Source of the DNA: Paracidovorax avenae ATCC 19860 | GTDB lineage: Bacteria; Pseudomonadota; Gammaproteobacteria; Burkholderiales; Burkholderiaceae_C | Direction of reading: 5' to 3' | Assembly (NCBI RefSeq): GCF_000176855.2 | Contig: NC_015138.1 | Location: forward strand, 868,001 to 932,000 | Length of the DNA: 64,000 nt | In this document: positions 39,889-52,251 of the stretch, piece by piece | How the letters are laid out: the number at the start of each line of letters is the position of its first letter | Numbering within the stretch: the first letter of the stretch is position 1 | Position numbers and translations under genes: made by a program | The notes under the pieces: model-generated | What the model was told of the DNA's origin: nothing | The model's input: only the letters and a program-made list of their open reading frames with translations | The model's database searches: none

Positions 39889-40677
39889 TCAGGCCGCCTG
39901 CGCCCATTCCTGCGCCGGCATGCCTTCGCCGAAGTACAGCGCCCGGATGTCGGCGCGCCCGCGCAGGTCCGCGGCGCTGCCGCACAGGGCGCTGCGGCCG
40001 GTCTCGAGCACGGTGGCCCGGTGGGCGTGGCGCAGCGCCACGGTGGAGTTCTGCTCGGCGATGAGCAGCGTCAGGCCTTCCTCGCGGTTGAGGCGCGCCA
40101 GCTCGCGGAAGATGTCCTCCACGGTGCGGGGCGCGAGACCCATGCTGGGTTCGTCCAGCACCAGCAGGCGGGGCCGCGCCATCAGCGCGCGGCCGATGGC
40201 GGCCATCTGCTGTTCGCCGCCGGAGGCGAGCCCGGCGGGCGTGCGGCGCAGGGCGTGCAGGCGTGGAAAGGCGGCATAGACGCGTTCCAGGTCCTGCGCG
40301 AACCGCGAGCGCGGCGCGCCGCCGCCCAGGCCGCCGGCGACGAGGTTTTCCTCGATCGTGAGCGACGGGAAGCAGTGCCGGCCCTCCAGCACGGGCACGA
40401 GGCCGCTGCGCACCAGCATATCCGGCGTGGCGCGCAGCACGTCGGCGCCCGCGAAGGCGATGCTTCCGCGCGCGACCTGGCCGCGCAGGGCCGGCAGCAG
40501 TTGGGAGACGGCGCGCAGCACCGTGGATTTGCCCGCGCCGTTGGCGCCCAGCAGGGCGTGGATCTCGCCGGCCCGCACGTCCAGGCTCACGCCCTGCAGC
40601 GCGGCGATGGCGCCGCGGTAGTGCACATGCACGTCCTGCAGGCGCAGCAGGGGTGCGCCGTCGTCCTGTGCGGCCAT
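39889..40677 (-). CDS. Branched-chain-type ABC transporter ATPase (LivF-like)
   Basis: A 262-residue ATPase: Walker A GANGAGKST, Q-loop region, a degenerate signature LASGGEQQMAAIGRAL in place of LSGGxQQ, Walker B RLLVLDEPSMGLAP and the H-region LTLLIAEQN. The SMGLAP motif after Walker B is typical of LivF. Last gene of the organosulfur operon, 5 bp after the SfnB-like gene. Together with the LivG-like ATPase, two permeases and binding protein upstream it forms a complete importer. The DUF2252 gene lies beyond it in the same direction, 86 bp away. Confidence 0.9.
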   Translation of the reverse strand: MAAQDDGAPLLRLQDVHVHYRGAIAALQGVSLDVRAGEIHALLGANGAGKSTVLRAVSQLLPALRGQVARGSIAFAGADVLRATPDMLVRSGLVPVLEGRHCFPSLTIEENLVAGGLGGGAPRSRFAQDLERVYAAFPRLHALRRTPAGLASGGEQQMAAIGRALMARPRLLVLDEPSMGLAPRTVEDIFRELARLNREEGLTLLIAEQNSTVALRHAHRATVLETGRSALCGSAADLRGRADIRALYFGEGMPAQEWAQAA

Positions 40678-40682
40678 GGCGC

Positions 40683-41972
40683 TCAGCTCCAGGCGTGGAA
40701 GGGCGGCTTCACGCCGTTCAGGTGGTAGTTGCCCACGATGGCGTACTTCCACCGCACCGGGTCGTGCAGCGTGTGGGTGCGCGCGTTGCGCCAGTGGCGG
40801 TCCAGGTGGTACTGGCCCAGCGTGGAGCGCGTGCCGGCGAGCTCGAAGAGCTTGTTGGCGGCCTGCAGGGCGATCTCGGTGGAGAGCACCTTGGCCTCGG
40901 CCACCGCGATCTGCGCGGCGGCCACGGTGTCCGCATCGGGCGTGGCCAGCGCGCGGTCGATGGCGCGGCCCGCGCGCTCCAGCAGCGCCTCGCTCGCGTG
41001 CAGGCGGATCTGCAGGTCGCCGACCGCGTGGATGGTGTAGGGATCTTCGGCGGCGGTATCGCGCTGGCTGTCCACCCAGGGGCGGGTCTTGGTGCGCACG
41101 AAGTCCTGGGTGTCCTCGATCGCGTTGCGGGCAATGCCCACGTCCACCGCGGCCTGGATGATCTGGAAGATCGCGCCGTCCGCGGAGGGCCGGTCGTAGC
41201 CCTTCCAGGCCGGCACGAGGTGGGTGCGGGGCACGCGCACCCGGTCGATGAGCACGGTGCCGCTCAGCGTGGTGCGCTGCCCGAAGCTGCTCCAGTCGTC
41301 GATGACCGACAGGCCGGGTGCGTCGCGCTCGGCGATGGCATACCAGGCGCGGCCCTGCGGATCGTTGGCCACGATGGGCACGTAGTGCGCCAGCAGCGCG
41401 CCGCTGGAGTAGAACTTGCGACCGCTTACCACGACGTGGTCGCCGTCCTCCACGAAGCGGGTCTCGAAGTCCGCGGCGCGGCGCGAGCCCGATTCGGAGA
41501 AGGCGTTGCCGAAGCGCGCGCCCGCGAGGATCTCGCCGAACAGCAGGCGCTGCTGCGCCTCGTCCGACACGGTGCGGATGGCGGCCACGATGCCCAGGTG
41601 GTTCTGGGTGATCTGTCCGATGGACGGGTCGGCCGCGGAGATGATCGCGATGACCTCCGCCAGCGTGGCGTACGACACCTCCGCGCCGCCATGGGCGCGG
41701 GGCACGTTGATGGCCCAGAGCCCGCTCTGGGAATAGGCATCGATCTCCTCCACCGGCCAGAGGCGGTCGCGGTCGCGCAGCGCGGCGCCCTCGCGGAAGC
41801 GCTCGGCCAGGCCGTGGGCGATGGCGATGGCCTCGGCGTCATCGCGGATCACGTGGGCCGGGGCCTTGGGGCGCGGCAGCCCCGGCACGGGCTGGCCGGG
41901 CTGCAGGGCCGCCTGCAGGGCATGCGGGCGGACGGGCTGTTCGGTGGCGGGGCTCTGGAGCACGGCGGACAT
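40683..41972 (-). CDS. SfnB-family acyl-CoA dehydrogenase-like flavoenzyme (sulfur acquisition)
   Basis: A 429-residue acyl-CoA-dehydrogenase-fold protein: IGQITQNHLGIVAAIRTV, GNAFSESGSRRAADFETRF, VVSGRKFYSSGALLAHYVP, SFGQRTTLSGTVLIDRVRVP, and a C-terminus ending [27 protein letters not shown]. This is the SfnB/DszC group, in which the CoA-oxidation fold is used as an FMNH2-dependent monooxygenase of reduced organosulfur compounds. The conserved C-terminal HTLHDP motif supports this. AGGAGG lies 7 nt before the ATG. Its place inside the sfnG-ABC operon supports a role in sulfone or sulfoxide use; the substrate is unknown. Confidence 0.85.
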   Translation of the reverse strand: MSAVLQSPATEQPVRPHALQAALQPGQPVPGLPRPKAPAHVIRDDAEAIAIAHGLAERFREGAALRDRDRLWPVEEIDAYSQSGLWAINVPRAHGGAEVSYATLAEVIAIISAADPSIGQITQNHLGIVAAIRTVSDEAQQRLLFGEILAGARFGNAFSESGSRRAADFETRFVEDGDHVVVSGRKFYSSGALLAHYVPIVANDPQGRAWYAIAERDAPGLSVIDDWSSFGQRTTLSGTVLIDRVRVPRTHLVPAWKGYDRPSADGAIFQIIQAAVDVGIARNAIEDTQDFVRTKTRPWVDSQRDTAAEDPYTIHAVGDLQIRLHASEALLERAGRAIDRALATPDADTVAAAQIAVAEAKVLSTEIALQAANKLFELAGTRSTLGQYHLDRHWRNARTHTLHDPVRWKYAIVGNYHLNGVKPPFHAWS

Positions 41973-42012
41973 GGTGGTTCCTCCTGGTGGCGTGGGTTGG
42001 GCGAGGGCGAAA

Positions 42013-43332
42013 TCAGTCGTCGATGCTGCGGCGCAGCGGGATCTTCCGGTCGCGGGCATAGGCTTCGGAGGACGCCTCGATCAGCGGCCGCAGCAGCTTC
42101 CAGTCCGGCGCGATCCAGTCGGAGACCACCTTCCACTGCCTGCCGTCCCATTGCTGGAAGGCCACGCGGCCGTCGCCTTCGTGGTTGTCCCAGGTCACGT
42201 GGATGGAGTGGAAGAGGCCCTTGGCGCCGAGCGCCGCGGCGCGCGCCTCGTCGATGCGCAGGTTCTCGAAGCCCCAGCGCACTTCGTCGCCGGTGAGGGT
42301 GCGCCGGCCGAATTTCGCCTGCGCGATGCGCACGGCCTCGACGTTGAGGATGCCGTTGAGCACCCCGAGGTTGTGATAGACGCTGCCGATGCGGCGCTGG
42401 TCCTCGAGGTTGCCCTTGCCCGCGGCGTACACGGTCTTGCGGATCTCCTGCAGCACGGGGTACTGGTCGCCCGCCGCCACCGTGGTGATGGCGGTGTAGC
42501 CCTTGGCGGCGTCGCCCGCTGGCAGCACGTCTTCCTCGGAGTTGGACCAGACGTTGCCGATGATGCGCGTGGCGGGGAAGCCCGTCTTCTGCGCGGTGCG
42601 CAGGGCCACGGGGTTCATCACGCCCCAGCCGCGCAGCACCACGTAGTCGGGCCTGGCGCGGCGGATGGCCAGCCACTGCGACTGCTGCTCGTTGCCGGGG
42701 TGCGGCACCTCGATCTGCTGCAGCGTGAAGCCGTACTGCTTCGCCAGCAGTTCGTAGATGGGGATCGTCTCCTTGCCGTAGGGCGAGCCGTGGTAGAGCA
42801 CCACGATCTTCCTGCCCTTGAGCTTGTCCGCGCCGCCTTCCTTGGCGGCGATGTAGTTCACGATGCCCGAGGTCTCGCTGTAGGGGTTGAGCAGGAGCGG
42901 GAAGGCGTACTTGAACACGCGGCCGTCGGTGGTGTCGGTGCGGCCGTGGTTGATGGTGACGAGCGGCACCTTGTCGGCGGTGACGCGGTCCAGCATGGCG
43001 TAGGCGATGCCCACGGAGAGCGGGTTCCAGGCGGCGATGCCGGGGCGGGTCTTGAAGCGCTCGTACACCTCCACGCCGCGCTCCACCTCGTACTGCGTCT
43101 CCCCTTCCGCCCAGGTCAGCTTCACGCCGCCCACGCCGCCGTCGCGCAGGTTCACCAGGTTCAGGTAGTCGATGAATCCGCCGAAGAAGCCCGTGCCCCC
43201 GGCGGCGTACGGGCCGACGCGGTAGCTCTGCAGCGGGAAGAACTGCTCGTCGGCCCGGACGGGCTGCACGGCGAGGGTGGCGGTGGCGGCCAGCGCGAGG
43301 GCAGCGGCGCGCAGGTGCGGAAGAAGGCGCAT
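42013..43332 (-). CDS. ABC transporter periplasmic binding protein (branched-chain/urea family)
   Basis: A 439-residue protein: the signal peptide is LRAAALALAATATLAVQPVRA followed by DEQFF; the mature protein is a two-lobe Peripla_BP_6-type fold (YAAGGTGFFGGFIDYLNLVN, YGKETIPIYELLAKQYG, PDYVVLRGWGVMNPVAL). The start ATG is 9 nt from AGGAG. A TTG three codons upstream overlaps that AGGAG site and is rejected. Family members bind amino acids, urea, amides or aromatic acids. Here the operon context (FMN reductase, SfnG, SfnB) points to an organosulfur ligand, which is inference. Confidence 0.88.
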   Translation of the reverse strand: MRLLPHLRAAALALAATATLAVQPVRADEQFFPLQSYRVGPYAAGGTGFFGGFIDYLNLVNLRDGGVGGVKLTWAEGETQYEVERGVEVYERFKTRPGIAAWNPLSVGIAYAMLDRVTADKVPLVTINHGRTDTTDGRVFKYAFPLLLNPYSETSGIVNYIAAKEGGADKLKGRKIVVLYHGSPYGKETIPIYELLAKQYGFTLQQIEVPHPGNEQQSQWLAIRRARPDYVVLRGWGVMNPVALRTAQKTGFPATRIIGNVWSNSEEDVLPAGDAAKGYTAITTVAAGDQYPVLQEIRKTVYAAGKGNLEDQRRIGSVYHNLGVLNGILNVEAVRIAQAKFGRRTLTGDEVRWGFENLRIDEARAAALGAKGLFHSIHVTWDNHEGDGRVAFQQWDGRQWKVVSDWIAPDWKLLRPLIEASSEAYARDRKIPLRRSIDD

Positions 43333-43386
43333 GGAAGACAACTCCTGGAGGACGGTGGTGAAGCGATGGAAAGGGAGGGGAGGGGG

Positions 43387-44505
43387 TCAGCGCGGGGACT
43401 GCGGGAAGAGCGCGGCGATGCGGCGCGTGCAGGCCTGCCGCAGGCGTGTGCTGAGTGCCGCCAGGCCTTCGGGCTCTGCGATGAGGAAGCCGATGATCAG
43501 CACGCCCAGCACGATGCGCTGGACCATCTCCAGCACGCCGGAATCGAACACCCCGCCGAGCGCCCAGCCGCCCAGGCGCGAGAGCAGCAGGGGCAATGCG
43601 ACCATGAGCGCCGCGCCGAGGAAGGCGCCGCGGAGGGTGCCGAGCCCGCCCAGGATGACGATGAAGAGGATCTGGAAGGAGCGGTCGAGGTTGAAGCCCG
43701 CGGGCTCCACGGTGCGCAGGTACACGAAGGCCCAGAGCACCCCGGCCACGCCGACGATGAAGGACGAGACGGCGAAGGCCAGCAGCTTGGTGCGCAGCAC
43801 CGGGATGCCGATCACGCGGGCGGCCAGTTCGTTGTCGCGCACGGCGATGAAGTGCTGGCCGGTGCGCGTGGACACCAGCCGCCATGCAGCCGCCGTGAGC
43901 AGCGCCACCACGGTGAGCGCGAACAGGTAGCGCGCGGCGGGTGTATCGAAGACCCAGGGCCCCACGCGCAGCGCGGGCGCGTCCACCACGCCGGAGCGGC
44001 TATCGAGGGTGAACCAGCCGAAGCGGGTGAGTGCCCACTGCACGAAGAACTGCGCGGCCAGTGTGGCGACGGCGAGGTAGAAGCCCCGCAGCCGCAGGCT
44101 GGGCAGGCCGAATACGAGCCCCACCGCCGTGGCGCACAGGCCACCCAGCAGCATGCCGGCGGGCAGCGGCAACCCGGGCACCCGCAGCTGCAGGTTCAGG
44201 GCCGCGAACGCGCCCACCGCCATGAAAGCCGCCGTGCCCAGCGAGAGCTGGCCGGCATATCCCGTGAGCAGGTTCAGGCCCACCCCGGCGAGCGACAGCA
44301 CCAGGAAGGGCAGCAGGATGGCGTCGAACCAGTAGGGCGTGGCCAGCGCGGGCACGAGCCCGTAGGCCAGCGCCAGCAGCGCGGCGGCGGGCAGCCAGCG
44401 CGGCGCCACGCGGCCGGCGGGGGCCGCCAGTGTGTCCGCCGGGGAGGCCGCGGCCGGAGCCTGGTGGGCTGCAGCGGCGGGAGGCAGGATGGCGCTCATG
44501 GTCAT
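43387..44505 (-). CDS. Branched-chain-type ABC transporter permease (LivM-like)
   Basis: A 372-residue permease with about ten hydrophobic helices: WLPAAALLALAYGLVPALA, AILLPFLVLSLAGVGLNLLTGYAGQLSLGTAAFMAVGA (the LivM YAGQLSLG signature), and near the end FNLDRSFQILFIVILGGLGTLRGAFLGA, the conserved cytoplasmic EAA-like loop for ATPase contact. The long Ala/Pro N-terminus is atypical. ATG 44505 overlaps the LivH-like stop (ATGA). A second ATG at 44499 has AAGGG 7 nt upstream and could be the actual start. Confidence 0.9.
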   Translation of the reverse strand: MTMSAILPPAAAAHQAPAAASPADTLAAPAGRVAPRWLPAAALLALAYGLVPALATPYWFDAILLPFLVLSLAGVGLNLLTGYAGQLSLGTAAFMAVGAFAALNLQLRVPGLPLPAGMLLGGLCATAVGLVFGLPSLRLRGFYLAVATLAAQFFVQWALTRFGWFTLDSRSGVVDAPALRVGPWVFDTPAARYLFALTVVALLTAAAWRLVSTRTGQHFIAVRDNELAARVIGIPVLRTKLLAFAVSSFIVGVAGVLWAFVYLRTVEPAGFNLDRSFQILFIVILGGLGTLRGAFLGAALMVALPLLLSRLGGWALGGVFDSGVLEMVQRIVLGVLIIGFLIAEPEGLAALSTRLRQACTRRIAALFPQSPR

Positions 44506-45395
44506 GCCCTTTCCACGAGGCGCTGGCCGAACAGCCCCTGCGGGCGCACCAGCAGGAAGACGAGGGCGACGGCATAGGCGAACCAGCCTTCGATGCCGCT
44601 GCCGACGATCGGGCCCAGGTACACCTCGGCCAGCTTCTCGAACGCGCCCACCAGCAGCCCGCCTACGATGGCCCCTGCGACCGAATCGAATCCGCCCAGC
44701 ACCAGCACGGGCAGGGCCTTGAGCACCACGAGCGACAGCGAGAACTGCACTCCCAGGCGCGCGCCCCACAGCAGCCCGGCGGCCAGCGCGATCACGCCGG
44801 CCGCGGCCCACACGGCGGCCCACACCCGGGGCAGGCGCAGGCCCACGGCGAGCGCGGCGAAGGTGTCGTCCGCCACGGCCCGGAAGGCGAGGCCCGTGCG
44901 GGTGAAGCGGAAGAAGGCCGACAACAGGGCCACCAGCGTGCCCGCGCACGCGGCGGCCACGAGGTCGAAGCGCGAGACCAGCATGCCGGCGATGTCCAGC
45001 GGCGTGTCTTCGATGCCCAGGTCCAGCGCGTGGACCTGCGTGCCCCACGCGAGCTGCGCCACGCCCTCGATCACGTAGGACAGGCCCAGCGTCGCCACGA
45101 ACAGCGCCATCGGGGAGCGGCCGGCCAGCGGCCGCAGCACGGTGCGCTCGATGGCCAGCCCGAGCAGCACCATGAATGCCAGGGTGGCCGCGAGCGCCAG
45201 CGCGAACGGCATGCCGCGCTCGACGAGGCTCACGAAGGTGAGCGCCGCGAGCAGCAGTTGCGCGCCCTGCGCGAAGTTCAGCACGCCCGAGGTCTTGTAG
45301 ATGAGCACGAAGCCGATGGCCACGAGCGCATACATCACGCCCGAGAGCAGGCCGCCCACGAGCACTTCGGCGAAGAAGGTGAAATCCGCATCCAT
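44502..45395 (-). CDS. Branched-chain-type ABC transporter permease (LivH-like)
   Basis: A 297-residue permease with about eight helices, starting GLLSGVMYALVAIGFVLIYKTSGVLNFAQGAQLLLAA (the LivH signature LNFAQG). The conserved loop VLKALPVLVLGGFDSVAGAIVGGLLVGAFEKLAE is near the end. The ATG shares one base with the LivG-like stop (TGATG) and the stop overlaps the LivM-like start, so the three are translationally coupled. It forms the membrane channel with the LivM-like permease. Confidence 0.92.
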   Translation of the reverse strand: MDADFTFFAEVLVGGLLSGVMYALVAIGFVLIYKTSGVLNFAQGAQLLLAALTFVSLVERGMPFALALAATLAFMVLLGLAIERTVLRPLAGRSPMALFVATLGLSYVIEGVAQLAWGTQVHALDLGIEDTPLDIAGMLVSRFDLVAAACAGTLVALLSAFFRFTRTGLAFRAVADDTFAALAVGLRLPRVWAAVWAAAGVIALAAGLLWGARLGVQFSLSLVVLKALPVLVLGGFDSVAGAIVGGLLVGAFEKLAEVYLGPIVGSGIEGWFAYAVALVFLLVRPQGLFGQRLVERA

Positions 45396-46204
45396 CACGC
45401 GCCCTCCGCTTCGGTGCCGGCATGCTCCACGCCCAGGTAGGCATCGATCACGGCGGGGTCGTTGCGCACCTCCGCGGGCGTGCCGTCGGCGATCTTGCGG
45501 CCGTGGTCCAGCACCGCCACCCGGTCGGAGAGGCCCAGCACCACGCCGATGTCGTGCTCGATGAGCAGGATGGCGGTGCCGAACCGGTCGCGCGCCGCGC
45601 GCACCAGTCCGGCCATGTCGCGCTTTTCCGAAAGCGTCATGCCGGCCATGGGTTCGTCCAGCAGCAGCAGGCGCGGCGCGGCGGCCAGCGCGCGGGCCAG
45701 TTCGACGCGCTTCTGCAGCCCGTAGGGCAGGGTGGAGGCAGGCCGTTCGCGCACGGCCTGCAGCCCCAGGAAGTCCAGCACCGCATCCGCCTGCGCGGCC
45801 GTGTCGCGGCGGGCTGCGCGGGCACGGGGCGCATCCGCCCATTGCTCGACCCAGCTGCCCTGCGGGCCGGTGCAGCCCAGCGCCACGTTGTCACGCACCG
45901 AGAGGCCCCGGAACAGCGCGAGGTTCTGGAAGGTGCGCGCCACGCCCAGCCGCGCCAGGCGCTGCGTGGGCACGTGCGCGAATTCCTCCGCGCCCAGCCG
46001 CACGCGGCCGCTGTCCGGGCGGTACAGGCCGCACACCACGTTGACCAGCGAGCTCTTGCCGGCCCCGTTGGGGCCGATGACGGCGCGGATCTCGGCGGGG
46101 GCGATGTCGAGGTCGATGTCCGACAGCGCCTGCACGCCGCCGAAGGAGAGGGCGACATGCCGCAACTGCAGCACGGTAGCCGGGGTGGGCGGGAACATGG
46201 CCAT
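45395..46204 (-). CDS. Branched-chain-type ABC transporter ATPase (LivG-like)
   Basis: A 269-residue ATPase with Walker A GPNGAGKSS, the LivG insertion RLGVARTFQNLALFRGLSVRDNV, signature-like LPYGLQKRVELARAL, and Walker B RLLLLDEPMAGMTLSEK (the PMAGM motif is typical of LivG), then ILLIEHDI. It starts 40 bp after sfnG and overlaps the LivH-like gene. Pairs with the LivF-like ATPase at 39889. Confidence 0.92.
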   Translation of the reverse strand: MAMFPPTPATVLQLRHVALSFGGVQALSDIDLDIAPAEIRAVIGPNGAGKSSLVNVVCGLYRPDSGRVRLGAEEFAHVPTQRLARLGVARTFQNLALFRGLSVRDNVALGCTGPQGSWVEQWADAPRARAARRDTAAQADAVLDFLGLQAVRERPASTLPYGLQKRVELARALAAAPRLLLLDEPMAGMTLSEKRDMAGLVRAARDRFGTAILLIEHDIGVVLGLSDRVAVLDHGRKIADGTPAEVRNDPAVIDAYLGVEHAGTEAEGA

Positions 46205-46244
46205 GGCGGTGGGCGATGTGCTGGGGGCGGGATGTGCCGGGGCG

Positions 46245-47375
46245 TCAGGCTTCCGCGGTCTCCAGGGCGGGCTGCGTCCGCGGCTGCGCGGCGGCCTGGC
46301 GGGCCTCCAGCTCGCGCACCAGCGGCAGCACCTTGCGTCCGAAGTACTCCACCTCTTCGATGAAGTGCAGGAAGCCGGTCAGCACCAGGTCCACGCCGAT
46401 GGCCTTGAGCGCGACGATGCGTTCGGCGATCTGCTGCGGCGTGCCGATCAGGTTGGTGCGGAAGCCGTCGTTGTATTGCACGAGGTCTTCGAAGGTGGAG
46501 GTCGCCCAGTTGCCTTCCCCTTCCGGCGAGGAACGGCCGGCCTGCTTCGCGGCGTCGCCGAAAGCCTGCACCGCTTCCACGTGGGCGTGGCGGATGATGT
46601 CCTGCAGCACGGCCTGGGCCTCTTCCTCGGTATCGCGGGCGATCACGAAGGCGTTCACCCCGATGCGCACCGTGTGGCCGTTGGCCCGGGCCTTGGCCTG
46701 GATGTCGTCGATCTGGGCCTGGAGTCCCTCGGGCGTGTTGCCGTTGGTGAAGTACCAGTCGGACACGCTGGCCGCGTTGTCGCGCGCGGCGCGGGAGCTG
46801 CCGCCCTGGAAGATCTCCGGATGGGGCTTCTGCAGCGGCTTGGGGCTGAGCGTGTAGTCGTTGAAGCGGTAGAAGTCGCCCTTGAAGGTGAAGTGGTCCT
46901 GCGTCCAGATGCCCTTGAGCGCGCGGATGAATTCGTTGGAGCGGCGGTAGCGCTCGTCGTGCTCCAGCCAGGGCTCGCCGATGGCCTGGAACTCGCCCTT
47001 GAACCAGCCGCTTACCACGTTGATGCCGATGCGGCCGCCCGAGATGTGGTCGATGGTGGCGATCTGCTTGGCCACCACGGCCGGGTTCCACGGGCCCGGC
47101 AGGATGGCCGCCAGCACCTTCAGCCGCGTGGTGGCGTGCAGCAGGGCCTGGCTGAACGACACGGACTCGTGCTGGTGCTCCGCGCCGTAGCCCGCCGTGA
47201 AGCGGATCTGGCTCAGGGCGTATTCGAAGCCGGCTTGTTCCGCCGCCACCGCCAGCCGCTGGTTGTATTCCAGGCTCCAGTCGGTGCGCTGCTCGATGGT
47301 GCTCACGACCAGGCCGCCGCTGACGTTCGGCACCCAGTAGGCGAATTTGACGGGCTCGTTGCGGGATGTGCTCAT
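46245..47375 (-). CDS. sfnG: FMNH2-dependent dimethylsulfone monooxygenase
   Basis: A 376-residue luciferase-family flavin monooxygenase: KFAYWVPNVSGGLVVSTIEQRTDW at the start, ISGGRIGINVVSGWFKGEF, ERYRRSNEFIRALKGIWT, IFQGGSSRAARDNAA. These match SfnG, which oxidises dimethylsulfone to methanesulfinate using reduced FMN from a partner reductase. The start has AAGGAG 8 nt upstream. The FMN reductase gene lies 75 bp upstream in the same operon and should supply FMNH2. The importer genes follow 40 bp later. Confidence 0.9.
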   Translation of the reverse strand: MSTSRNEPVKFAYWVPNVSGGLVVSTIEQRTDWSLEYNQRLAVAAEQAGFEYALSQIRFTAGYGAEHQHESVSFSQALLHATTRLKVLAAILPGPWNPAVVAKQIATIDHISGGRIGINVVSGWFKGEFQAIGEPWLEHDERYRRSNEFIRALKGIWTQDHFTFKGDFYRFNDYTLSPKPLQKPHPEIFQGGSSRAARDNAASVSDWYFTNGNTPEGLQAQIDDIQAKARANGHTVRIGVNAFVIARDTEEEAQAVLQDIIRHAHVEAVQAFGDAAKQAGRSSPEGEGNWATSTFEDLVQYNDGFRTNLIGTPQQIAERIVALKAIGVDLVLTGFLHFIEEVEYFGRKVLPLVRELEARQAAAQPRTQPALETAEA

Positions 47376-47450
47376 GGTGAAGGCTCCTTGGATGGGATGG
47401 AGGGCAGGGGCGTGCAAAGTGGGGTGCTGGTGGGCGGTGCGGTCCGGTCC

Positions 47451-48035
47451 TCAGGCCACGGCAGCCAGCGCGGGGCGCGCCGGTGCGGAGCCTTCCCGCC
47501 CCGCACGCAGCAGCGGCAGCGCGCGTTCCACCGCCAGGGCGGCGCGGTCCAGCAGGGCCGCGTCGGTGATGCGGTAGTCGGTGAAATCCTTGTCGGTGCC
47601 GTACACGCCCAGGGGCAGGGTGCGTGCCTGGAAGAAGCTGAAGAGCGGGCGCAGCTGGTGGTCGATCACCAGCGCGTGGCGCTCGCTGCCACCCGTGGCG
47701 GCCAGCAGCACCGGCAAGTCCACCAGGGCTTCGTGGTGCACGAAGTCGAAGAAATGCTTGAACAGGCCCGAGTACGTGGCCCGGTACACCGGGCTGCCCA
47801 CCACGAGCACGTCGGCCTGTTCGACGGCGGCGATGTCGGCCTCCACCTCCGGCGGCAGCTGGTTGCGGTAGAGGGCGCCCGCCAGGCGCGGGCCGACCGT
47901 GCCGAGTTCGATGGTGCGCACGCGGATGGGAACGGCGTCACCGATCCTTTCGACGAGGTGCTCGACGAGCGCGAGGGTGCGCGACGGGCGCTGGAGACTG
48001 CCGGAGACGGCGACGAGATTCAGGGTGCGGGCCAT
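47451..48035 (-). CDS. msuE: NAD(P)H-dependent FMN reductase, MsuE/SsuE type
   Basis: A 194-residue flavodoxin-like reductase: LNLVAVSGSLQRPSRTLALVEHL contains the phosphate-binding loop GSLQRPSRT, then DVLVVGSPVYRATYSGLFKHFFDFV and LLAATGGSERHALVIDHQLRPLF. It supplies reduced FMN to two-component monooxygenases such as SfnG and the SfnB-like enzyme. It is the promoter-proximal gene of the organosulfur operon: a near-consensus sigma54 promoter ends about 60 bp upstream of its ATG, with an IHF-like site beyond. Confidence 0.9.
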   Translation of the reverse strand: MARTLNLVAVSGSLQRPSRTLALVEHLVERIGDAVPIRVRTIELGTVGPRLAGALYRNQLPPEVEADIAAVEQADVLVVGSPVYRATYSGLFKHFFDFVHHEALVDLPVLLAATGGSERHALVIDHQLRPLFSFFQARTLPLGVYGTDKDFTDYRITDAALLDRAALAVERALPLLRAGREGSAPARPALAAVA

Positions 48036-48095
48036 GGTGATCCATTCGTTGCGGTGAAGGGGGCGGCACCGCGGCGCGGTGTCCGTCCTGCCTTC

Positions 48096-48111
48096 AGCAG
48101 CTTGCGTGCCA
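48096..48111 (-). promoter_or_regulatory. Sigma54 (-24/-12) promoter of the organosulfur operon
   Basis: The minus strand reads TGGCAC-GCAAG-CTGCT. Compared with TGGCAC-N5-TTGCW only the first T of TTGC is changed, and GG-N10-GC spacing is exact. The expected leader to msuE (48035) is roughly 50 nt. The sigma54 activator gene sfnR is 3 kb away in the same cluster. Confidence 0.75.
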
Positions 48112-48119
48112 GAGATTTT

Positions 48120-48140
48120 TTCCTTTGAAATCAATGGCTT
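48120..48140. promoter_or_regulatory. IHF-like element upstream of the organosulfur sigma54 promoter
   Basis: AATCAAtggcTTG matches IHF consensus WATCAANNNNTTR at every position. The surrounding 21 bp agree at 18 positions with the elements upstream of opgH (core ttccttt...aatcaatg.ctt), in the same orientation relative to the gene. It begins 8 bp from the -24 element. Confidence 0.6.
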
Positions 48141-48256
48141 GCGCATTCGCTATCACGCAACGGGTGTGTGCTGCACAGCACGCTGCTGTCGCGTTGCTGC
48201 AGGATCAGCAGCCCGCCGGGAAACGTGCATGCATATGCGTTTCCCGCAGCAGCGGA

Positions 48257-49441
48257 TCAGGAATAGAAGGAAGGCTCGGGCCGCTGCCCGTGCAGCGCCC
48301 ACCGGCCCAGTTCGCGGCGCTTGTAGTCCTCCGGATCGTGCAGCGTGTGCACCCGCAGGTTGCGCCAGAAGCGGTCCAGGCGCAGTGCGGCCGTGGTGGC
48401 GCGCGGGCCGGTCACCTCGAAGAGCCGGTGCGCCACGTCGAGCGCGGCGCGGCCCGCGGCCACCTTGGCGGCCGCCACGGCCACGGCCACGTCGCCGCGC
48501 GCCCCGGGCGATAGCGCGAGCCCTTCGGACCATGCCGCGTCGAGCATCGCGGCCGCACGGTCCGCCAGCAGGCGCGCACCTTCGAGGGCCAGCCAGAAGT
48601 CGCCGTAATGGCCCAGCAGGTACGGGTCTTCGCCCGCCTGGTCCACGCCGGATGCATGCCACGGGCGCGCATGCTGCAGCGTGAAGCCGCGTGCTTCGGC
48701 CAGCGCGCCTTCGCCCAGCCCCAGGTACACGTGCGCCAGCACCAGCTGCGCCAGCAGCGGGCGCAGCGCCGCGAACGGGGAGGACAGGGGGCCCGGATCG
48801 GTGAGCAGCTCATGCGCCTGCACGCGCACCTGGTCGAAGACCACGCTGCCGCTGTCCGTCTGGCGCTGGCCGATGTTGTCCCAGTCGCCCTGCACCCCGA
48901 TGCCCTGGCGGTCGGTCGGCACCACGGCGATCAGCAGCCTGCCCGAGGCATCGAACGCGGAAGCGAGCAGCCTGTCGGAATCGCCCGCGCCCGAGCAGAA
49001 ACTCTTGCGGCCGTAGAACGACCACGAGCCGTCCGTCTGCTGCGTGGCCGCGGTGCCCCGGTCCAGCGGGTTGAGCGCGTTGCCCCAGAACCATTGCCGC
49101 GCCACGGTGGCCTCGAGCCAGGGCTGCCACTGCGCCGGCCGGCCGAAGAGCTGCGCCGTGGCCAGCAGCAGGTGGTGGAAGCCGAACACGTGGGCGACCG
49201 CGCTGTCCACGCGCGCGAAGTGGCGCACCACGCCCAGCACCTCGCTCCACGAGGCCCCCAGCCCGCCCAGGGATGCGGGAACGGACAGGGCCAGCAGGCC
49301 GCTTTCGCGCAGCAGGCGGCGCTCGTGCAGGGGCACGCCGCCGGCCTGGTCGCGCGCGACGGCCGTGGCTGCGAGGGATTCGACCATCCGGTCGCGGGCA
49401 CCGTGCCAGTCCCGGTGCGCTTCGGCGGCGAAGTGCTTCAT
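48257..49441 (-). CDS. Acyl-CoA dehydrogenase-like flavoenzyme A (DszC/SfnB superfamily)
   Basis: A 394-residue protein: [86 protein letters not shown], and a C-terminus FWRNLRVHTLHDPEDYKRRELGRWAL. It is clearly paralogous to the divergent gene at 49868 and more distantly to the SfnB-like protein. The HTLHDP tail and lack of a clear CoA-specific catalytic Glu motif fit an FMNH2-dependent monooxygenase rather than a beta-oxidation enzyme. AAGGAG is 8 nt upstream of the ATG. It is 221 bp from msuE, but transcribed toward the same end from its own side; substrate unknown. Confidence 0.85.
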   Translation of the reverse strand: MKHFAAEAHRDWHGARDRMVESLAATAVARDQAGGVPLHERRLLRESGLLALSVPASLGGLGASWSEVLGVVRHFARVDSAVAHVFGFHHLLLATAQLFGRPAQWQPWLEATVARQWFWGNALNPLDRGTAATQQTDGSWSFYGRKSFCSGAGDSDRLLASAFDASGRLLIAVVPTDRQGIGVQGDWDNIGQRQTDSGSVVFDQVRVQAHELLTDPGPLSSPFAALRPLLAQLVLAHVYLGLGEGALAEARGFTLQHARPWHASGVDQAGEDPYLLGHYGDFWLALEGARLLADRAAAMLDAAWSEGLALSPGARGDVAVAVAAAKVAAGRAALDVAHRLFEVTGPRATTAALRLDRFWRNLRVHTLHDPEDYKRRELGRWALHGQRPEPSFYS

Positions 49442-49867
49442 GGTCGCACTCCTTGCGCATGGGAGGCGGAGAGGTGCGGCGACCGGATTCGCACGGTGCC
49501 GCGGTGCCGGGGGCTGTGCAGAGGAGGGCCGCCGGGTGCGGCAGAAGGTATTGCGTGCATGGAGGAGTGGGTGCGTGGTGGATGGGAACAGCAGGCGTCG
49601 CAGGGTCCGTGCCATGGGCCCCCATGGGAAACGGCGTGGGAGCCTGCTGCGTGATCAGCAACTGCGGCGCCGGGCTGCTGCGGCAGTGTCTGCCAGGGTG
49701 CAGTTGCTGCTGCAGCCGCAAAACGTCTATCGATGCTTGGAATCCTTATTTGCCGCGGGGCATGCGGATTCCCAGAATTGCTGTTCAGGCAGCAGTTCCG
49801 TCATTCCGCCCGCGCCGCAGCCTTTCCCCGTGCCGCGGCGGAACCCTTATCGAGGAGAGAGCCCGAC
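49442..49867. other. Divergent intergenic region between the two flavoenzyme genes
   Basis: These 426 bp must hold both promoters. No exact sigma54 site was found. TTGGAATCCTTATTTGC at 49737-49753 resembles one, but GG-to-GC spacing is 11 rather than 10. No terminators, RNA genes or long ORF with a ribosome-binding site are evident. A GAGGAG precedes the plus-strand flavoenzyme start. Confidence 0.5.
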
Positions 49868-51124
49868 ATGAGCCTTGCGACGATGCCAGCGCACGATCCC
49901 GCCGCCGACGGCGGGGACGCGGCCACCGCGGTGGCGGGTGATGGGCCGGACCGGCCCATCGTTCCCCCGGCGCCCGAGGCGGTCGCGCAGCGGCTGGCGG
50001 AGCAGTTCGCCCGGACGGCGGCCGAGCGCGACGAGCGCGGCGGCACCCCCAAGGCAGAGCGCGACGCCCTGCGCGACAGCGGCCTGCTGGCGATGAGCAT
50101 TCCGGCCGCGCAGGGCGGCGGCGGGGCCGGCTGGCGCGAGACGCTGGAGGTGATCCGCATCCTGGCGCGCGCCGATTCGTCGCTGGCCCACCTGCTGGGC
50201 TTCCACCATTTGATGCTGGCCACCGCGCGCCTCTTTTCCCAGCCGCGCCAGTGGGAGCCCTGGTTCACGCAGACGGCGCGCCTGCGGTGGTTCTGGGGCA
50301 ATGCCCTGAACCCGCTGGACGACCGCACGCAGCGCACGCTCCAGGGCGGCTGGAGCGAGTTCTCGGGCCGCAAGAGCTTCTGCTCGGGCGCGCTCGATTC
50401 CGAGATGCTCATCGCCTCCGCGCGCGATGCGGAGTCCGGCGAGCTGATCGTGGCGGCGCTGCCCACGGGGCGCACGGGCATCGCCGTGGCGCCGGACTGG
50501 AACAGCATCGGCCAGCGCCAGACGGACAGCGGCAGCGTCACCTTCGAGCGCGTGCGGGTGGAGCCGCACGAGATCCTGGCCGACCCGGGGCCGCTGGCGA
50601 CGCCCTTCGCCTGCCTGCGGCCCCTGCTGGCGCAGCTCGTGCTCGCCAGCATCTACCTGGGCATCGCCGAGGGCGCCTTCCAGGACGCGCGCCACTACAC
50701 GCTCCATGAGGCGCGGCCCTGGCGCAGCTCGGGCGTGGCGCGGGCGATGGACGATCCCTACGTGCTGGGCCACTACGGCGATTTCTGGGTGGGCCTGGAG
50801 AGCGTGCGCGTGCTGCTGGACCGCGCCGCCGGCCGTTTCGACGACGCCTGGGCGCGGGGGGCGGGCCTTACGGCCGCCGAGCGCGGCGACGTGGCCGTGG
50901 CCGTGGCGACCGCCAAGGTGGCCGCCACGCGCACCGGCCTGGACCTCTGCACCCGCATGTTCGACGTGGCCGGCGCACGCGCCACGCACGGCGGGCTGCG
51001 CCTGGACCGCCACTGGCGCAACCTGCGCACCCACACGCTGCACGACCCGCTGGCCTACAAGCTGCGCGAACTCGGGGAGTGGGCCCTGCAGCAGCGCCAT
51101 CCCGATCCCAGCTTCTACTCCTGA
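49868..51124 (+). CDS. Acyl-CoA dehydrogenase-like flavoenzyme B (DszC/SfnB superfamily)
   Basis: A 418-residue paralogue of the protein at 48257: [111 protein letters not shown]. The shared blocks show recent duplication followed by divergent orientation. Probably an FMNH2-dependent monooxygenase of an organosulfur compound. The ATG is preceded by GAGGAG. The sfnR gene starts 5 bp after its stop, so the two are cotranscribed. Confidence 0.85.
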
Positions 51125-51129
51125 ACGCC

Positions 51130-52251
51130 ATGTCCTCCCTGCACTTCCATACCGCCTTGCCCGAAGACGGCGACGCACCGGCCCGGCACCGGGAGGCGGC
51201 GCCGCTGCTCACGCTGCCCGGTGCCCGGGCCATGCCCACGTCGATCCGCGCCACCGCGCAGGTGTTCGAGGACCCGCGCTCCCTGGCGCTGCTCGAGCGC
51301 ATCCGCCTCGTCGCGCCCAGCGAAGCCAACGTGCTCATCCTGGGCGAGACGGGCACGGGCAAGGAGCTGATCGCGCGCCACGTGCATGCGCTGAGCGCGC
51401 GGCGCGAAGGGCCGTTCGTGGCCGTGAACTGCGGTGCGCTGTCCGAAACGCTGGTGGAAAGCGAACTGTTCGGCCACGAGAAGGGGGCCTTCACCGGCGC
51501 CTTCACCGCCAAGGCCGGATGGTTCGAGGCCGCCAACGGCGGCACGCTGTTCCTCGACGAGGTGGGCGACCTGCCGCTGTCCATTCAGGTCAAGCTGCTG
51601 CGGGTGCTGCAGGAGCGCGAGGTGGTGCGGCTGGGCGCGCGCAGGAGCCTGCCGGTGGACGTGCGCGTGGTGGCCGCCACCAACGTGCGCCTGCAGGACG
51701 CCGTGGCCGCGGGGAATTTCCGCGAGGACCTGTTCTACCGGCTGCACGTGGTGGGCCTGGCGCTGCCCACGCTGCGCGAGCGGCCGGGCGACATCCTGCC
51801 GCTCGCGCGCCATTTCATCGACGAGTACCGGCACCGCCTGGGCTACGGCCCGGTGCGGCTCGACGGGGGCGCGGAGCGCAAGCTGCTCGCCCACGACTGG
51901 CCCGGCAACATCCGCGAACTGGAGAACGTGATCCACCACGGCCTGCTGATCTGCCGCCGCGGCGTGCTCCTGGCGGAGGACCTGCAGCTGTCGTCGCTGG
52001 GCCTGCAGCGCCGCCCCGCGGGCGAAGCGCAGGCGGAAGCGACGCCGCTGCAGGCGCTGGAGACGGCGTTGTCGGATTTGTTCCAGCAGCAGGGCGAGCA
52101 GCTGTACGAACGCATCGAGGAAACCGTGGTGCGCGCCGCCTTCGAGTTCTGCCACCGCAACCAGGTGCAGGCCGCGCGCCTGCTGGGCATCAGCCGCAAC
52201 GTGCTGCGCGCGCGCCTGATCCGGCATGGGGACATCACTGCGGTGAGGTGA
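51130..52251 (+). CDS. sfnR: Sigma54-dependent activator SfnR
   Basis: A 373-residue enhancer-binding protein without a receiver or other sensor domain: the N-terminus (~45 residues) is short, then AAA+ with Walker A GETGTGKE, an intact GAFTGA loop ([13 protein letters not shown]), Walker [14 protein letters not shown] and RELENV, then a Fis-type HTH ([20 protein letters not shown]). This matches SfnR, which activates sulfone-use genes under sulfur limitation and is itself controlled by the CysB regulon in Pseudomonas. It should act on the sigma54 promoter at 48096. Cotranscribed with flavoenzyme B (5-bp gap). Confidence 0.88.

Follow-up and report, generated by a model that had tools for sequence, protein, structure and literature searches.

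Gene content of the cluster

We analyzed a stretch of 64,000 nucleotides from Paracidovorax avenae ATCC 19860 (contig NC_015138.1, positions 868,001 to 932,000; here called the window), in which a Liv-type ATP-binding cassette (ABC) importer is encoded among genes for sulfone-metabolizing enzymes. The cluster contains a minus-strand run of eight genes (msuE-sfnG-livG-livH-livM-binding protein-sfnB-livF) with intergenic gaps of -4 to 75 bp, adjoining a divergent block of two msuC genes and an sfnR-like gene; all genes are in frame (Table 1). The run, the two flavoenzyme paralogues and the sfnR-like gene were all found where a first-pass annotation, made from the sequence alone, had placed them. 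At 98% identity, the binding protein matches one named Paracidovorax avenae as well as those of P. oryzae and P. cattleyae loci.

SfnG, SfnB, and MsuE all scored above the curated NCBIfam cut-offs. Among solved proteins both flavoenzyme paralogues are nearest to MsuC (PDB 6U76), with 598 bits (paralogue B) and 513 bits (paralogue A) compared with 322 and 304 bits for the best DszC-type chain, and by closest solved relative they are MsuC-type enzymes. The first-pass annotation had these flavoenzymes desulfurize the imported compound; by published activity the MsuC type instead oxidizes methanesulfinate, and the C-S-cleaving SsuD is encoded, with SsuA, 1.6 Mb from the cluster in the same genome. 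Because SsuD is present elsewhere in the genome, all enzymes leading from sulfone to sulfite are encoded. In P. konjaci, P. anthurii, and several Variovorax loci (L036, L037, L047-L050, L052), the two msuC genes flank SsuD, which is absent from that position in the window (49442-49867), P. oryzae, and P. cattleyae. The SfnR-like protein gave no SfnR match in NCBIfam, its top match being NorR at 336 bits against a cut-off of 476, and its name rests on domain layout and gene context; an alternative GTG start lies at 51079.

Table 1. Features of the window cluster and ligase-like proteins encoded in related loci
Feature	Position	Strand	Basis
LivF-like ATPase subunit	39889..40677	-	PF00005; LivF model 194 bits, curated cut-off 441; Walker motifs seen by eye
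SfnB, acyl-CoA-dehydrogenase-type flavoenzyme	40683..41972	-	TIGR04022, 620.6 bits, cut-off 430.9
Periplasmic binding protein, organosulfur clade of HAAT family	42013..43332	-	PF13458, 132 bits; clade support 100/100
LivM-like permease	43387..44505	-	PF02653, 134 bits
LivH-like permease	44502..45395	-	PF02653, 85.7 bits
LivG-like ATPase subunit	45395..46204	-	PF00005 and PF12399
SfnG, dimethylsulfone monooxygenase	46245..47375	-	TIGR04021, 637 bits, cut-off 383; PDB 8T0U, 638 bits
MsuE, FMN reductase	47451..48035	-	TIGR03566, 255.6 bits, cut-off 212.5
Putative sigma54 -24/-12 element TGGCACGCAAGCTGCT before msuE	48096..48111	-	10 of 11 consensus positions; begins 76 bp upstream of msuE
Dyad TGCTG-N-CAGCA, candidate SfnR enhancer site	48169..48180	none
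Dyad TGCTG-N-CAGCA, candidate SfnR enhancer site	48195..48210	none
MsuC paralogue A, methanesulfinate monooxygenase type	48257..49441	-	PDB 6U76, 513 bits
Dyad TGCTG-N-CAGCA, candidate SfnR enhancer site	49645..49660	none
Dyad TGCTG-N-CAGCA, candidate SfnR enhancer site	49779..49794	none
MsuC paralogue B, methanesulfinate monooxygenase type	49868..51124	+	PDB 6U76, 598 bits
SfnR-like sigma54-dependent activator	51130..52251	+	PF00158, 234 bits, residues 48-210; no sensor domain (Pfam)
Degenerate CoA-ligase-like proteins	L143:5027-6172, L144:10266, L146:12675-13820, L147:12541-13689, L148:7490-8665, L149:5307-6482, L150:12239		Between sfnG and livG
Degenerate CoA-ligase-like protein	L159:13799-14773		Before livG of DmoA-linked cluster

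Linkage of the importer to SfnG

As a measure of how far this arrangement is conserved, we took the best 80 of 564 named genomes with a relative of the binding protein (78-98% identity), located neighbours by tblastn with the window proteins, and tallied them. In 72 of these 80 closest loci, SfnG was encoded on the same strand at a distance of no more than 6 kb. In five its slot was filled by a DmoA/NtaA-type monooxygenase (the one representative tested scored above the TIGR03860 cut-off), and three were cut by contig ends. LivG, LivH, LivM, and LivF were all kept in 78 loci, the remaining two being truncated. Its recurrence in 72 of 80 related loci places the SfnG-transporter arrangement beyond chance.

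Because the 80 loci had been picked by similarity, we added evenly drawn genome surveys, in which the first 5-8 candidates per genome were scored and misses are thus possible. Across 200 genomes of the phylum, the branch was found at 77% identity or more in three genomes besides the window's own, with no match between 51% and 77%. Among 300 genomes of the window's order, ten carried the branch (at least 66% identity) in 12 copies, each less than 5 kb from SfnG and one containing an in-frame stop. SfnG was encoded in 13 of the 300, including all ten branch genomes, compared with one of the 93 genomes that had lower-identity relatives only. Neither the branch nor SfnG was present in G396, the second representative of the window's genus in the sample. 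The order of genome G107 is probably Rhizobiales, judging by its match to Rhizobium loci; nine of its 249 genomes carried the branch (at least 63%) and 17 encoded SfnG, among them all nine branch genomes, seven with SfnG within 7 kb (one of the seven on the opposite strand). Co-occurrence of the branch with SfnG gave Fisher values of 2e-16 in the window's order and 3e-12 in that of G107. Such a survey had been proposed in the first-pass annotation, and in both orders the transporter and sfnG do occur together.

Five SfnG loci without the Liv set (L136, L138, L139, L140, L141) had no ABC importer part among the ten neighbours searched by Pfam; the same ten included an MFS (major facilitator superfamily) transporter in L141 and a TauE-type exporter in L138. 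An outer-membrane receptor, which would be a sign of a large ligand, was also sought beside the cluster; judged only by length and first residues, none was apparent among the 935-970 amino acid neighbours in L057, L059, and L089. Two further genes recur in these surroundings: an amidohydrolase beside ssuD (L057:18354-19193, L060:1276-2151, L148:11724-12566, L155:15910-16758; PF04909 in L057, the sole one tested), and a FAD-NAD(P)-binding protein near ssuD, sfnG, or the importer (L135:3951-5384, L155:13276-14712, L114:655-2082; PF13454 in L135 and L114).

Relationship to known importers

By Pfam, the transporter comprises a full HAAT (Liv-type) domain set in one gene run, with one Peripla_BP_6, two BPD_transp_2, and two ABC_tran domains. 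It thus has the five-part architecture and fold of LivFGHMK and LivFGHMJ, but differs from them in its sulfur-enzyme partners, its few cysteine (Cys) and methionine (Met) residues, and its scores, which fall under the curated NCBIfam cut-offs for LivF (194 of 441 bits), LivG (234 of 362), LivH (73 of 379), and LivM (92 of 366). The Urt cut-offs were also missed (UrtE, 175 of 286 bits; UrtD, 200 of 304; UrtB, 72 of 250; UrtC, 76 of 296), and the gene partners differ from those of the urea importer UrtABCDE, although UrtABCDE and the amide receptor AmiC belong to the same fold family as the window binding protein. As a family assignment, a branched-chain amino acid or urea importer was ruled out by these cut-offs. 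No NCBIfam family matched the binding protein at E≤0.001, SsuA_fam included. The SsuABC and TauABC importers, which have one permease and one ATPase, would have a sulfur-starvation role in common with the window importer, and the SsuA domain of this genome likewise has no Cys or Met, but they are of another importer class. By these sequence comparisons the transporter forms a separate branch within the HAAT ABC importers.

Its partner enzymes and regulator type are those of the Pseudomonas sfn/msu system (SfnG, MsuE, MsuC, SfnR). A figure legend in PMC8234197 gives DMSO2 (dimethylsulfone) transporters as not yet characterized, and the same source also refers to predicted ABC transporters encoded between sfnA and sfnB of P. 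putida. Two loci with a comparable layout, L136 and L137, had no Liv-type importer in the stretch fetched. The first-pass annotation had flagged the importer as a candidate for an undescribed system, and among the matches listed we likewise found no description of a Liv-type importer with SfnG in the open-licence literature. The binding protein is 50% identical to the solved protein 4RU0, from the Pseudomonas fluorescens group; a literature search with that code returned materials papers only, among the matches listed.

Origin of the organosulfur clade

We retrieved up to 20 kb of sequence surrounding members and relatives, called genes by codon usage, and annotated representatives. Relatives at 40-58% identity belong in part to the DmoA-linked subgroup, but most lie in another conserved cluster composed of a FadD-like coenzyme A (CoA) ligase, LivG, LivH, LivM, the binding protein, LivF, and a PaaK-like ligase. 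These nearest relatives keep the order LivG-LivH-LivM-binding protein-LivF, but are partnered by CoA ligases, have ordinary Cys/Met contents, and carry Arg322, Thr107, and Tyr150 in 31 of 31 cases. When 78 binding proteins were placed in a quick tree, every sulfur-linked one fell in a single clade of 43 rows, 31 with SfnG, nine with another sulfur monooxygenase, and three without any; all 35 rows outside the clade lacked a sulfur monooxygenase within 7.5 kb. The first-pass annotation had held that frequent occurrence of the transporter without sulfur genes would count against it. Such occurrence is a feature of the wider family, with its ligase-linked sisters, and not of the sulfur clade, where the three rows are the only ones without a monooxygenase within that distance.

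A careful tree was built from 59 binding proteins, these being the 78 rows minus 20 plus 4RU0. The organosulfur clade had support of 100/100 and 40 rows, with all 36 sulfur-linked proteins inside: 27 with SfnG, nine with another sulfur monooxygenase, and four without, one of them 4RU0, which has no locus. The clade lies nested within the acyl-CoA-ligase-linked importers. Since it is a single, fully supported clade in that position, the tree is most simply explained if the sulfur role arose once, from a ligase-linked importer.

In a second organosulfur subgroup (L116, L158, L159, L180, L060:14752-20292), to which 4RU0 belongs, the importer is accompanied by DmoA/NtaA-type monooxygenases and, in most cases, by SfnB/DszC-like proteins. 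Another branch member, L156 (genome G651), has no sulfur genes nearby, an acyl-CoA dehydrogenase in the stretch, and ordinary Cys/Met; this is a possible exit from the sulfur role.

What may be a relic of the ancestral partnership was found in a subgroup at 66-72% identity, where seven of eight loci (all but L145) encode a protein of 381-391 amino acids between SfnG and LivG, with a partial AMP-binding match in the three tested. This degenerate ligase-like protein occupies the position of the sister group's ligase. A ligase-like protein of 324 amino acids, below the Pfam cut-off, is encoded in the DmoA subgroup (L159). The TSGTTGxPK and YGxTE motifs are absent from all eight degenerate proteins, whereas proteins of the ligase group keep TSGTTGxPK in 27 of 31 cases (of the four exceptions, one is cut by a contig end and three have a varied motif) and YGxTE in 31 of 31. 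The degenerate proteins contain 0-0.26% Cys+Met compared with 2.2-4.7% in full ligases, and are perhaps retained as pseudoenzymes of the sulfur-starvation response.

Depletion of Cys and Met

Proteins made during sulfur starvation tend to be low in Cys and Met. We compared the Cys+Met content of sulfur-linked (n = 100-109) and ligase-linked (n = 25-31) subunits; L123, L132, L174, L175, and subunits below 45% identity were excluded, and L041, L114, L133, and L156 were placed on the sulfur side by clade. The median for the binding protein was 0.48% in the sulfur-linked group (n = 109) compared with 3.38% in the ligase-linked group (n = 31). Corresponding medians were 0.90% and 3.68% for LivM, 1.69% and 2.85% for LivH, 1.66% and 4.92% for LivG, and 1.56% and 3.31% for LivF. 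The difference stayed when the sulfur side was limited to genome-survey loci (binding protein, 1.15%), with p values of 4e-4 to 1e-9 that are inflated by relatedness. After the start codon, the window binding protein has no Cys and two Met, and SfnG, SfnB, and MsuE have neither residue.

The window binding protein also has the lowest Cys+Met content (0.56%, the next being 0.91%) of 20 Peripla_BP_6 domains in its own genome, a ranking that covers 20 of 21 such domains, a partial hit at 3699128 being excluded. Controls from the same genome gave 0% for SsuA (277 matched residues), 1.4% for SsuD, and 4.8% for another SsuA-family protein. Among the members without nearby sulfur genes, G028 is poor in these residues (0.89% in the binding protein), G130 intermediate (2.02%), and G651 not poor (3.39%). 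Two other binding-protein domains of the genome, at G000:C1:740087-741076 (0.91%) and 69392-70255 (0.35%), are very low in Cys/Met and possibly belong to further sulfur-starvation importers.

Promoter elements

SfnR is reportedly CysB-regulated and sigma54-dependent, going by the title of a paper cited in PMC8234197. The candidate sigma54 element before msuE, searched as TGGCACGNNNNNTGCW, is the single match in the window, compared with 0.18 expected. A sigma54 score of at least 9 was reached in 31 of 79 msuE upstream regions and in 3% of shuffles. The dyad TGCTG-N(2-8)-CAGCA, a pattern first noticed in relatives and in the window locus itself, occurs five times in the 64 kb compared with 1.6 expected, a count reached in three of 100 shuffles; four of the five fall in the two intergenic regions of the cluster. 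In Pseudomonas aeruginosa, a passage of PMC12581299 lists sfnG among the genes most induced in sulfur starvation.

Proposed pathway and alternatives

These data suggest that the cluster encodes an organosulfur importer of the sulfur-starvation response, which we regard as very probable. Co-occurrence, phylogeny, Cys/Met depletion, and promoter elements all back the earlier proposal that an importer with two permeases and two ATPases is dedicated to acquiring organosulfur compounds. It is reasonably likely, more specifically, that this Liv (HAAT)-type importer is controlled by SfnR and carries a neutral organosulfur compound, DMSO2 or dimethyl sulfoxide (DMSO) being the best candidates, into the SfnG-MsuC-SsuD pathway. 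The ligand itself we put at slightly short of an even chance of being DMSO2 or DMSO. The fold neighbours of the window binding protein include HAAT proteins that bind urea and small amides, so a small neutral ligand has precedent, and a second sulfonate importer would be redundant because SsuA and SsuD are encoded elsewhere. In the cleft region of the binding protein, Arg322, which the secondary structure of a predicted model places close to where the long hinge helix begins, is present in 31 of 31 ligase-linked and none of 105 sulfur-linked proteins.

As outlined in PMC8234197, SfnG converts DMSO2 to methanesulfinate, MsuC forms methanesulfonate, and MsuD releases sulfite, all three using reduced flavin mononucleotide (FMN) supplied by a reductase. 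In Acinetobacter baylyi, according to a passage of PMC13352529, dimethyl sulfide and DMSO are oxidized to DMSO2 by group D enzymes, and MsuC's own role is doubted for its low turnover. SfnB shares acyl-CoA-dehydrogenase-type domains with the group D enzymes, in a comparison of domains only. We propose that the importer evolved from one coupled to acyl-CoA ligases. When sulfate is scarce, SfnR and sigma54 would activate the msuE-led operon. The periplasmic binding protein would then capture a small neutral organosulfur compound, most likely DMSO2 or DMSO, and LivH and LivM would carry it inward, powered by LivF and LivG. SfnB may oxidize a less oxidized form to the sulfone, which SfnG with MsuE would cleave to methanesulfinate; the MsuC pair would form methanesulfonate, from which SsuD would free sulfite.

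Several observations weigh against this scheme. The importer branch was not beside SfnG in three of 13 and 10 of 17 SfnG genomes in the two order surveys; with so many SfnG genomes lacking it, sulfone use would not strictly need the importer, and DMSO2 may enter by diffusion. Branch members G028 and G651 have no sulfur genes near, and the G651 binding protein has an ordinary Cys+Met content of 3.39%. The sigma54 element is present in 17 of 22 msuE upstream regions with an SfnR-like gene in the locus, but in only 14 of 57 without one, and in none of 14 regions before DmoA-type genes, so sigma54 control would apply mainly to SfnR-bearing loci and not to most rhizobial ones. Arg131, which may contact an anion, is retained in 102 of 105 sulfur-linked and 26 of 31 ligase-linked proteins. 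Of 36 group-distinguishing positions, 11 lie in cleft zones that hold 20% of the residues (p 0.08), the zones having been taken from the secondary structure of the predicted model and not from a ligand-bound structure. The case for an altered cleft would thus be carried by the sharpest group-distinguishing positions.

Retention of Arg131 would suit a sulfur-starvation importer for a larger or charged organosulfur compound (an aryl or long-chain sulfone, sulfonate, sulfinate, or thioether acid) that is then processed by SfnG- or DmoA-type enzymes and SfnB. The DmoA/NtaA-type enzyme in the SfnG slot of five of the 80 loci fits such a ligand, as does the pairing of the sister subgroup with DmoA/NtaA-type enzymes and DszC-like proteins; the importers linked to CoA ligases are presumably acid carriers, and the nearest folds include 4N03, an entry whose title names a fatty acid ABC transporter binding protein. 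A carboxylate is disfavoured, however, by the loss of both Arg322 and the catalytic CoA ligases, and the genome already has SsuA for sulfonates. We consider a larger or charged ligand unlikely, though a serious contender. Much less probable is a role in the uptake or recycling of a pathway side product, or in flavin import for the FMN-dependent enzymes. The need of SfnG, MsuC, and MsuD for reduced FMN would be consistent with the latter, but the sister group adjoins CoA ligases and not flavoenzymes, and the SfnG loci L136 and L137, with MsuE, SsuD, and MsuC-type neighbours, have no Liv-type importer in the stretch fetched. Least probable of all is that an ordinary importer of branched-chain amino acids, amides, or urea lies in the sulfur operon fortuitously or to balance carbon and nitrogen: its fold and subunit composition do match the HAAT family, but the four Liv-type subunits fall well under the LivF/G/H/M and Urt cut-offs, the sulfone-enzyme linkage recurs across two orders, and the Cys/Met depletion is seen in the sulfur-linked branch and not in its sisters.

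Significance

In its fullest form, which we offer tentatively, our proposal is that this is the first dedicated active importer of neutral sulfones and sulfoxides, that it arose once from a CoA-ligase-coupled carboxylic-acid importer through loss of a carboxylate-holding cleft arginine, and that the old ligase was kept in one lineage as an ATP-dead, Cys/Met-free sulfur-starvation protein. The cluster provides a specific candidate sulfone importer, carried by bacteria of soil and plants that include rhizobia, Variovorax, and Ralstonia. Several related binding proteins are labelled branched-chain amino acid in databases, and these labels merit re-examination. The analysis also places the orphan solved structure 4RU0 in the organosulfur clade, and the group-distinguishing residues are concrete targets for tests. 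For the binding-protein family, the importer may represent a clean case of ligand switching, accompanied by a fossil partner enzyme.

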